Shown here: positions 48,684 to 52,129 of the stretch, one piece after another
How the letters are laid out: every line of letters starts with the position of its first letter
How positions within the stretch are numbered: position 1 is the first letter of the stretch
Assembly: GCA_003211695.1 (NCBI GenBank)
Contig: QCSA01000001.1
Location: 99,116 to 163,115, forward strand
Reading direction: 5' to 3'
Origin: Pelagibacteraceae bacterium AG-464-P07
GTDB taxonomy: Bacteria; Pseudomonadota; Alphaproteobacteria; Pelagibacterales; Pelagibacteraceae
DNA: 64,000 nt
Translations under genes and position numbers: made by a program
The notes under the pieces: generated by a model
Databases searched by the model: none
The model's input: only the letters and a program-made list of their open reading frames with translations
Told to the model about the DNA's origin: nothing

Positions 48684-49814
48684 ATGAATTCAAAATTTAC
48701 AAATTCCTTAGGAATTGCTAAGTCAGAAAAGGATACAAAAATTGTTGTTGCAATGTCTGGAGGAGTTGATTCTTCAACGGTTGCAGGATTAATGAAAAAA
48801 GAAGGCTATAATGTAATTGGAGTTACTCTAAAGTTATATGATGATGCCAAAACTTCGGTAAAATCAAGACAGTGCTGTGCAGGTCAAGATATAATGGATG
48901 CAAAAAAAGTTGCAAATCAATTAAATATTGATCATAAAATCCTTTATTATCAAAAGAAATTTAAAAAAGATGTAATCGATAATTTCGTTGAAAGCTACAT
49001 GGCTGGTGAAACACCAATTCCCTGTGTGCAATGTAATCAAACTGTTAAATTTAGAGACCTTTATGAATATTCAAAAGAATTAGGGGCAGATGCATTAATC
49101 ACAGGACATTATGTAAATAGCACACATAACGATGGAATTTCAGAGATGTATCGAGCAAAAGATCATGAAAGAGATCAAAGTTATTTTTTATTCAACACTA
49201 GTAAGGATCAATTGAATTTTTTAAGATTTCCACTTGGAAAATTTACAAAAAAAGAAACAAGAGAGATTGCAAAAAAACTAAAGTTAAATGTAGCTGATAA
49301 ACCTGATAGCCAAGATATTTGTTTTGTGTCAAATGGAGACTATGCGTCGGTAATTAAAAAGTTTAAACCCGAGTCTTTTAAAAAAGGAAATATCAAAGAT
49401 CTAAATGATAATATTCTCGGAACTCACGAAGGTATAATCAATTTTACTATAGGTCAGAGAAAAGGAATTAGGATAGCTGATAAAAAACCATTGTATGTTG
49501 TAAAAATTAACTCAAACGATAATGAAATAGTGGTTGGACCAAAATCTGCTCTTGGAGTAGACAAAATCAAATTAAGAAATTTAAACCAGCTTTGTAACAA
49601 TATGGAAGACTGTAATTCTAATTTATTTGTAAAAGTTAGATCAACTGGTAAATTATTAAAGGCTAAAGTTAAAGTTAATGGTATTAATGCTGAAGTTAAA
49701 TTAGAAAATAAAGAGGTCGGCATATCTCCTGGACAAGCATGTGTTTTTTATTCTAAAAATAAAATTGGGGATAAAGTACTGGGAGGTGGTTGGATAGATA
49801 GTAATTGTCTTTGA
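48684..49814 (+). CDS. mnmA: tRNA-specific 2-thiouridylase
   Basis: The 376-aa enzyme makes s2U34 in Lys/Glu/Gln tRNAs. PP-loop [16 protein letters not shown] lies at about 22-37. Catalytic Cys are in [13 protein letters not shown] (about 114) and [12 protein letters not shown] (about 213). The C-terminal beta-barrel is complete. Length normal. Confidence 0.96.
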
Positions 49815-49861: not shown

Positions 49862-50090
49862 ACCATTAAGTGATGGTAACTCATTAACAGTAGTGATCTA
49901 ATGACATTAATTAAGAGGCAACTCTTAACTGGCCAGTTGAGGAAAAACCGAGAGGTTCAAGCTTAGCGGGCAGAAAGTCCTACGGAGTAGTGCTAAAATG
50001 GTAGGACGGAAGGCTTGGCAGTAGCACGAAAATGACGAGCCAAACTTTCGTTCACATACCGAAAGGTATGTGAACAGAGGGTTTCACTGT
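49862..50090 (+). ncRNA. Structured RNA candidate of unassigned class
   Basis: A ~230-nt non-coding stretch with a dense set of perfect helices: ACCAT/ATGGT (49862-49877); TTAAGAG-GCAA-CTCTTAA (49911-49928); AACC-GAGA-GGTT (49946-49957); GTCCTAC/GTAGGAC (49977-49983, 50001-50007); GGCTTG/CGAGCC (50012-50017, 50036-50041); and GTTCACATACC-GAAA-GGTATGTGAAC (50050-50075). GTGCTA (49990-49995), inside the GTCCTAC loop, pairs with TAGCAC (50022-50027), a pseudoknot. Three hairpins have GNRA loops only when read on the + strand, fixing orientation. GC content is well above the surroundings. No known RNA (RNase P, tmRNA, SRP, 6S) fits. Confidence 0.75.
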
Positions 50091-50767
50091 TTTTTCCAGA
50101 AAAAGAAAGTTAACAAGTAAAAGCTGATTACTCCCATAAAATAATTCCATTCGAGAGCGTGCTTAAATGAATTATATCCTTCAGCAGCTAAGAAGGGGAT
50201 ACTTACAAATGCCACGATAACTAAAATTGAAACTAAAATAATTTTTATAAATAAAATTCTACTATTTGTAATTTTTTTGATTTGTTTTTTGATTTTGTAA
50301 TAATTAATTACCAAAATTGCTTGAGCTATAATTTCAAAAATTATAAAAGCCAGCACAACCACTCTTCTAAACAATTTGTAGAAATCATTATCAAACTTAA
50401 CTCCTAAAAATATAGAATGTAAAACTAGAAATATGGCTGAACCAATGCCAAAAAAAAGAAAAATTTTTTTATAGTTTAAATGTGTGCTTATTTTTCCCAT
50501 CAGATCAAAGTTAAAACGCCAGTATTGAATTAAAAAAAAAGCAGTAATGAACATTGCCGGTTTAAATATTAGGTACGTTGGAAAAACTCTAGCAGTTCTG
50601 CTTATTGATACTCCGCCATCTATATAAGGAATTGTTGGAAGCACTACATGTTCTAAGTTAAAAAACTGGTGAAAATTAGTGATTAGTATAAGGCAAGCAT
50701 TAAGTGCAATAAACGGAAGAACGAAGATCCAGATGCTCAACTTCTTAATTTTATTAATATTTTCCAC
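50084..50767 (-). CDS. Six-TM membrane protein, possibly Frag1/DRAM/Sfk1-like
   Basis: The 227-aa protein has six hydrophobic segments. PYIDGGVSISRTARVFPTYLIFKPAMF (about 46-72), after the first helix, recalls the P-x-IS..G....P...IF pattern of Frag1/DRAM/Sfk1 proteins. The ending HALEWNYFMGVISFYLLTFFFWKKQ also fits that family. Role in bacteria unknown. It ends against the structured RNA candidate. Confidence 0.6.
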   Translation of the reverse strand: MENINKIKKLSIWIFVLPFIALNACLILITNFHQFFNLEHVVLPTIPYIDGGVSISRTARVFPTYLIFKPAMFITAFFLIQYWRFNFDLMGKISTHLNYKKIFLFFGIGSAIFLVLHSIFLGVKFDNDFYKLFRRVVVLAFIIFEIIAQAILVINYYKIKKQIKKITNSRILFIKIILVSILVIVAFVSIPFLAAEGYNSFKHALEWNYFMGVISFYLLTFFFWKKQ

Positions 50768-50778
50768 TTAAAAAATTA

Positions 50779-50862
50779 TTATTTTTTCTTATTTCTTTTC
50801 TTAGCTCTTCTTTTTTTTGAGCCCATTTTGCGTCTACCTCTGTGTTTTTTGGGATATCCCAT
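50779..50862 (-). CDS. Tiny highly basic protein (27 aa)
   Basis: An ATG-TAA frame of 27 codons begins MGYPKKHRGRRKMGSKKRR; 17 of its residues are Lys, Arg or His. A very good SD, GAAAGGAG (50878-50871), lies 8 nt upstream, one of the strongest in the window, which makes a chance frame unlikely. Composition and size resemble minimal ribosome-associated proteins such as Thx or the AURKAIP1/COX24 tail, but no family is established. Confidence 0.65.
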   Translation of the reverse strand: MGYPKKHRGRRKMGSKKRRAKKRNKKK

Positions 50863-50947
50863 AAAATTTACTCCTTTCTAGTTTTATTATTTTATTGATG
50901 TTGAAATTTGGATATAACATTGTGTATGTTGGTAATCAAATTTTTTT

Positions 50948-52129
50948 ATGGCTAACTCACCCAAAACTTTTTTAAAACATGCTGCCAAAGGTATCCAATC
51001 TAGGTCAGTAAATCCTGCAATTATAAGGGCATCTACAATTCTTTTTAAGACAATACAAGAATTGCGAAAACATCAAAAAGATATAGCAAAAGGTAAAAGC
51101 GTTGCTTTCTGGGATTATGGTAGGCAGGGAAGTCAAACAACAATTTTACTTCAAAATTTACTTAAAAAATTGGAACTAGCTCATCATGTATTTTTAACTC
51201 AAACTGGATTTGCCTCAGTAGCATTGGCTATCATGAGCGTATGTAGACCAGGGGATGAAATTGTAATATCGGATTGTGTTTACCGTCCTACACGAAAACT
51301 TGTCAATCAATTACTTGCAGAATTTAATATTAAAGGTATTTGGTACGATCCAAATAGTTTTGAGGATCTAAAAAATAAAGTTACAAAAAAAACAAAACTT
51401 ATTTATGTAGAAAATCCAGGAAGTAATACTTTTGAATTTCAGGATTTAGGAAAGATAGTAGCCCTTGCTAAAAGAAAACAAATTTATACTGCTATCGATA
51501 ATACTTGGGGTACCGCATATTATTTGAAACCGATAAAATTAGGTTTCGATATGTCGATTGTTTCTGCTACCAAATATTATTCGGGTCATTCAGATGTTAT
51601 GGCAGGAACATTAGCGGTAAGTAAAAAAGTTTATAAAAAAGTTTGGTGGTATAACCATGTTTCAGGACACCGTCTATCCGCCGATGATGCTTATCTAGTT
51701 GTTCGAGGATTGCGAACTTTAGATTTAAGATTAGAAAAACATCAACAGAATACAAAAATAATATTAAAATGGTTAGCCCAACAAAAAAAAATAACAAAAA
51801 TTTTATATCCCTACAAAACATCATCTACTAGTTATAAGTTATGGAAAAAATACTATTCTGGAGCCTCAGGCTTGCTAGGGATCGTTATTAAAAGCAAAAG
51901 CAAAACTTCTGTGTACAAGTTTGTAAATTCATTAGAACTTTTTGGCATTGGTTATAGCTGGGGAGGCTTTGAAAGTTTAGCAGTTTATAATGATCACATC
52001 ATTGAAATGGGAAAAAGATTATTTTTTAAACTTGAAAAAGATCAACATCTTATTCGTTTGCATATTGGCCTTGAAGATCCGAAAGATTTAATAAATGATC
52101 TAAAAAAATCTTTAAAGTTCGTTAAGTGA
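50948..52129 (+). CDS. metC: Cystathionine beta-lyase (Cys/Met metabolism PLP enzyme)
   Basis: The 393-aa PLP enzyme has the Schiff-base Lys in SATKYYSGHSDVMAGTL (about 208). ENPGSNTFEFQDL near 157, YTAIDNTWGTAYY near 183 and SWGGFESLAVYN near 337 are as in proteobacterial MetC. It cleaves cystathionine to homocysteine. It overlaps the MFS gene by GTGA, suggesting a sulfur-compound or amino-acid link for that transporter. Confidence 0.88.
   Translation: MANSPKTFLKHAAKGIQSRSVNPAIIRASTILFKTIQELRKHQKDIAKGKSVAFWDYGRQGSQTTILLQNLLKKLELAHHVFLTQTGFASVALAIMSVCRPGDEIVISDCVYRPTRKLVNQLLAEFNIKGIWYDPNSFEDLKNKVTKKTKLIYVENPGSNTFEFQDLGKIVALAKRKQIYTAIDNTWGTAYYLKPIKLGFDMSIVSATKYYSGHSDVMAGTLAVSKKVYKKVWWYNHVSGHRLSADDAYLVVRGLRTLDLRLEKHQQNTKIILKWLAQQKKITKILYPYKTSSTSYKLWKKYYSGASGLLGIVIKSKSKTSVYKFVNSLELFGIGYSWGGFESLAVYNDHIIEMGKRLFFKLEKDQHLIRLHIGLEDPKDLINDLKKSLKFVK

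Follow-up and report, generated by a model that had tools for sequence, protein, structure and literature searches.

The question raised by this locus is whether a very short open reading frame (ORF), located on the minus strand of a 64-kb window (the whole stretch of 64,000 nucleotides that was analysed), is a real gene, and what kind of protein it would encode. A sequence-only reading of the window had proposed a gene for a Lys/Arg-rich protein of 27 aa, and the ORF, its coordinates, its strand and its product all proved to be as described (Table 1). On the minus strand the frame reads ATG GGA TAT CCC AAA ... TAA. The product contains 16 Lys or Arg among its 27 residues (59%), one His and no acidic residue, has a pI of about 12, and includes the stretch MGYPKKHRGRRK..GS. 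Its description as almost pure basic residues masks the non-basic positions that are best conserved, namely Y3, P4, G9, G14 and S15.

Table 1. Coordinates of the 27-aa gene, its upstream signals and its neighbours in the window.
Feature	Position	Strand	Basis or remark
mnmA (tRNA 2-thiouridylase), convergent	48684..49814	+	constant neighbour in Pelagibacteraceae only
227-aa membrane protein gene, co-directional, downstream	50084..50767	-	weak match to Frag1/DRAM; many relatives keep the linkage, others lack the gene
27-aa basic protein gene, product MGYPKKHRGRRKMGSKKRRAKKRNKKK	50779..50862 (stop included)	-	kept at 27 aa in 189/189 copies
Shine-Dalgarno sequence GAAAGGAG, 8-nt spacer to ATG	50871..50878	-	sequence; 94/123 distinct upstream regions from Pelagibacteraceae contain AGGA/GGAG or a longer match
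Candidate extended -10 element TGTTATATC inside conserved block GACAATGCTATATCC	50911..50919 (block: window 50905-50925)	-	conservation in relatives
Divergent Cys/Met-metabolism PLP enzyme (metC of the sequence-only reading)	50948..52129	+	swapped for accC or other genes in relatives

The window comes from a Pelagibacteraceae (SAR11) genome, and conservation of the frame in close relatives had been named as the check on the proposed gene. The gene was found once in each of the five genomes of the genus to which the window belongs, and in 163 of 197 Pelagibacteraceae genomes, including 71 of the 77 of good quality. Among the matches listed for this family, nearly all showed identities of about 78-100% over all 27 residues. 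Two matches in one genome were seen only in G013, which is 8% contaminated. Retention inside the clade is therefore near-universal and single-copy, as would be expected of a ribosomal protein. The mnmA gene was also sought in seven Pelagibacteraceae genomes without the 27-aa gene, of which six have a completeness of 90% or more, and was found in none; in an eighth, mnmA lies close to a contig end. In the tested genomes, then, the gene is apparently absent either because sequence is missing or because the region was lost as a whole.

All 189 copies that were read are exactly 27 aa long. They comprise 157 distinct DNA sequences and encode only 25 distinct proteins, with a mean synonymous difference of 0.62 and a mean non-synonymous difference of 0.077 (pN/pS 0.12). 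Frame and length are thus kept under an excess of synonymous change, as in a conserved protein-coding gene. Residues 1, 3-12, 14, 15, 18, 19 and 25 are invariant in the bacterial copies, and residue 2 is confined to Gly, Ser or Ala; given this restriction, the start Met is probably removed, which would leave a mature peptide of 26 residues and about 3.2 kDa. The 27-aa protein evolves far slower than the neighbouring enzyme: HTCC1062-type and HIMB59-type copies are 85% identical, whereas MnmA of the window genome and that of HIMB59 share 49%.

A chance ORF in AT-rich DNA, in which an A/G-rich strand happens to be read as Lys and Arg, was considered, because AAA and AGA codons are common within A/G-rich stretches. 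However, the Lys/Arg content of 59% compares with at most 36% in every other short ORF of the window and with a maximum of 43% in 20 Markov-simulated windows, and the frame, length and sequence are kept in the 189 copies at the low pN/pS given above. A chance origin therefore has a negligible probability, and we excluded it. An RNA element in place of a protein was also dropped, since Rfam gave no match near the gathering score. We conclude that the ORF is a true micro-protein gene under selection, with frame, length and protein sequence conserved over two bacterial orders and in phages.

The near-perfect Shine-Dalgarno (SD) sequence 8 nt before the ATG, which had been reported as rare in this genome, is indeed exceptional. 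The 64 kb contain a single GAAAGGAG, both strands counted, and only one of the 2158 ATGs in the window is preceded by it at the right spacing. For comparison, matches to the anti-SD complement were sought within 20 nt of the start in the 58 window ORFs of at least 100 aa. The longest was 7 nt, in one ORF, and 32 of the 58 had none of 4 nt or more. The SD sequence is not universal among the copies: of 123 distinct upstream regions from Pelagibacteraceae, 94 contain AGGA, GGAG or a longer match, and no HIMB59-type genome has one. The strong SD sequence in the window and in most of the Pelagibacteraceae suggests high expression. In the HIMB59-type copies (L156, L157, L198-L225), a conserved -10-like hexamer, TATAGT or TATTAT, instead precedes the ATG by about 8 nt, which suggests a leaderless mRNA. 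In the copies of a further family, f25, TATAAT or a similar hexamer lies about 24 nt upstream of the ATG.

Farther upstream, at about 45-60 nt, the GACAATGCTATATCC block is kept in many Pelagibacteraceae that share the upstream neighbour of the window and is absent where this neighbour differs. Within it, TGTTATATC is a candidate extended -10 element, which may also, or instead, serve the divergent Cys/Met enzyme gene; a sigma-70 scan did not detect it. The block lies between the two genes and is -10-like on both strands, so that a bidirectional promoter is possible.

The short distance to the downstream gene raises the possibility of a leader peptide that controls the membrane-protein gene, the start of which is within about 30 nt of the 27-aa stop codon in many relatives. 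This gene, the Frag1/DRAM match of which is below threshold (20.7 bits against a cut-off of 30.3), is present at this position in only part of the Pelagibacteraceae; between the 27-aa gene and mnmA, it is found in some genera only. Several genera of the Pelagibacteraceae lack it, as do the other families read, yet their peptide is unchanged, and the phage copies stand beside other genes. The membrane-protein gene is therefore not required for the 27-aa gene. In the Pelagibacteraceae loci read, mnmA is convergent on the 3' side wherever the locus extends far enough, and on the 5' side stands the gene of the Cys/Met PLP enzyme, accC or some other gene; families f32, f142 and f25 have neighbours unlike these. 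Since the neighbours change while the 27-aa gene stays, the gene is independent of them. A leader peptide is accordingly refuted as a general role, and we consider it very improbable for this gene.

Outside the Pelagibacteraceae, the gene was found in three families: f32 and f142, which belong to one order (HIMB59), and f25. In the HIMB59 order it was present in 126 of 162 genomes and in all 20 of good quality. The f25 carriers have small genomes (0.8-1.0 Mb, 25% GC). The gene was not found in f2, the sister family in the same GTDB order as the Pelagibacteraceae, where the regions of weak matches (13 bits) were read and contained no homologous ORF. Nor did a sample of roughly 150 further families of Alphaproteobacteria contain it; the other matches at class level (E 0.003-0.5) were taken as chance, as they covered the motif partially and mostly fell within longer frames. 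A phylum-wide sample gave the gene in the Pelagibacteraceae only. The membership of HIMB59 in SAR11 is disputed (PMC3815206, PMC10308909), and the presence of the gene in SAR11 and HIMB59-type bacteria, and not in the GTDB sister family or the roughly 150 others, bears on this relationship.

Viral contigs were scanned with a profile and with a degenerate DNA pattern, and about 30 of them (L247-L270, L276-L304) carry homologues. Their GC content is 0.31-0.49, so most of them are not stray SAR11 chromosome. The phage proteins follow the pattern M-[G/A/S/P]-YPKKHRGRRK-x-GS-[K/A]-x-R-[R/K] and continue into a variable basic tail, with a total length of about 28-40 aa. Residues 1, 3-12, 14, 15 and 18 are identical between phage and bacterial copies, a GTG start being counted as Met.

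The homologues stand in five or more phage gene settings that are unrelated to one another, and their N-terminal core is nearly intact. In the first, the gene lies between a structural module and the GroES, scaffold and capsid genes, with the portal gene upstream; the capsid proteins of these phages are 66-68% identical to those of pelagiphages HTVC023P and HTVC027P and of phage DSL-LC04. In the second, it adjoins endonuclease I and HNH genes, and an integrase is present. In the third, it is near a gene for a dCMP deaminase whose closest counterpart is from a Bradyrhizobium phage and whose best matches include other alphaproteobacterial phages. In the fourth, it adjoins a DNA ligase gene on a contig with a baseplate-wedge gene, and has a GTG start and a strong SD sequence. 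The fifth is a small fragment (L288), again with a GTG start. The motif was not found in the regions around the capsid genes of the cultured pelagiphages HTVC023P and HTVC027P, and a tblastn search against phage records gave no match, the 27-aa query being probably masked by the low-complexity filter. Several other very basic small proteins are encoded just upstream of the GroES and capsid genes in pelagiphage HTVC027P (L272:5306-5957) and phage 023Pt_psg01 (L273:5409-6145), at the site where related phages hold the 27-aa homologue.

The extreme basicity of the protein, together with the setting between portal, GroES and capsid genes in one phage group, would also suit a nucleic-acid condensing peptide, similar to a protamine or a nucleoid protein, that would neutralise the DNA of small-genome cells and of phage heads. 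Condensing tails, however, usually drift, whereas Y3, P4, G9, G14, S15 and also H7 are invariant in phages and bacteria, and the other phage groups have the gene beside endonuclease I/HNH, dCMP deaminase or DNA ligase genes. We consider a condensing role unlikely. The phage copies also raise the possibility of a host-takeover peptide, domesticated in an ancestor of SAR11 and the HIMB59-type bacteria, that has come to control some part of the core machinery, for instance RNA polymerase, an RNase or the ribosome. The gene is carried by several unrelated phage types, the tails of which are more diverse than the bacterial ones, and it is patchy among alphaproteobacterial families and absent from the sister family. 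On the other hand, near-universal single-copy retention in two orders looks like that of a housekeeping gene, and 27 residues cannot tell the direction of transfer. Such an origin is likewise improbable in our judgment. Both explanations are nevertheless serious rivals to a ribosomal reading.

The product had also been compared with tiny ribosomal proteins. This comparison fits as to the kind of protein, but no homology beyond composition, which was judged by composition-preserving shuffles, was found to any of those tested. No entry in Pfam, NCBIfam, PHROGs or PDB matches the 27-aa protein; the family has no model in these libraries, and it is therefore plausible that the usual gene callers overlook it.

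The ribosomal protein bTHX (Thx, S31; TIGR04560) is similar in being 26-27 aa long and very basic, in starting with Met-Gly, and in being encoded by a separate gene that usually lies outside the ribosomal operons (PMC3353972). The 27-aa protein, however, lacks the GD..T..GK..GS.G pattern and does not reach the curated cut-off of the bTHX profile. The relatives gave no match to the profile, nor did a match in any of 289 alphaproteobacterial genomes exceed the cut-off, and alignments with Thermus, chloroplast and plant mitochondrial Thx were not above shuffled controls (P 0.19-0.97, three queries). A G....GS spacing seemingly shared with bTHX was lost in the shuffle test. The second protein, bS22/mS38 (AURKAIP1/COX24 domain, PF08213), is a Lys/Arg-rich small-subunit protein of mycobacteria, where it has about 33 aa, and of mitochondria. 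Here the PF08213 (COX24_C) profile gave no match in 21 relatives, and the shuffle test was negative (P 0.40-1.00). The third, eL41, is a ribosomal protein of 25 aa that is nearly all Lys and Arg, but it is archaeal and eukaryotic, and the similarity is wholly accounted for by composition (shuffle P 0.54-0.82). Homology to these three was thus ruled out by the profiles and shuffle tests, and the 27-aa protein was not filed in any of them.

A further parallel is bS21, which is small and basic, acts in translation, and is common to Pelagibacter and its phages. The viral bS21 of pelagiphage HTVC008M was acquired from its Pelagibacter host and enters E. coli ribosomes (PMC6375957). While bS21 is a recognised ribosomal family, the 27-aa protein is only a candidate for ribosome binding. 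Among the explanations considered, a tiny RNA-binding component of the ribosome, or a factor on it, is the most probable, and phages carry it as they do bS21. We hold this reading tentatively, at somewhat below an even chance.

Several features argue for the ribosomal reading. The protein is very basic, single-copy and slow-evolving, has Gly, Ser or Ala at residue 2, and is carried by phages. It is constant in sequence and exact in length despite strong synonymous divergence, and is retained in two orders despite changing neighbours and changing translation signals. Its N-terminal core is kept in the unrelated phage settings, and the strong SD sequence suggests high expression. Other observations stand against it. 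No ribosomal protein proved homologous to it; neither rRNA nor ribosomal-protein genes adjoin the gene in the loci read; and one phage group holds it among capsid and portal genes. A 16S rRNA signature common to the carriers was rejected, since it comprised 5 columns, no more than arbitrary groupings yield.

For such a ribosomal protein or factor, we infer RNA binding with the ribosome as the target, and an arm-plus-helix shape. The invariant M-[G/S/A]-YPKKHRGRRK-x-GS-xx-RR would form an extended arm threading into a groove of the rRNA, and a short basic helix would follow. The phage versions, with their changed tails, might take the place of the host copy in translation or act alongside it, as viral bS21 does. 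The narrower claim, that this is a new ribosomal protein specific to SAR11, the HIMB59-type bacteria and one more streamlined alphaproteobacterial group, and shared with phages, is possible but rather doubtful. The ribosomal comparison of the sequence-only reading is accordingly a reasonable lead, as yet unproven, and the phage carriage and the SAR11/HIMB59 distribution are more interesting than what it had claimed.

Few cells in the ocean are as numerous as those of the SAR11 bacteria. The gene seems to be present in essentially all Pelagibacteraceae, yet it has no family in the libraries searched. If the protein is ribosomal, the core translation machine of these dominant marine bacteria would have an uncatalogued part that phages carry too. 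A new ribosomal protein would be an addition to those known from bacteria, and in cells that rank among the most abundant of the sea. It would also be a rare molecular character common to SAR11 and the disputed HIMB59 lineage; since the gene is carried by phages, its transfer could give the same pattern, and the distribution is a lead to this relationship rather than a proof of it.
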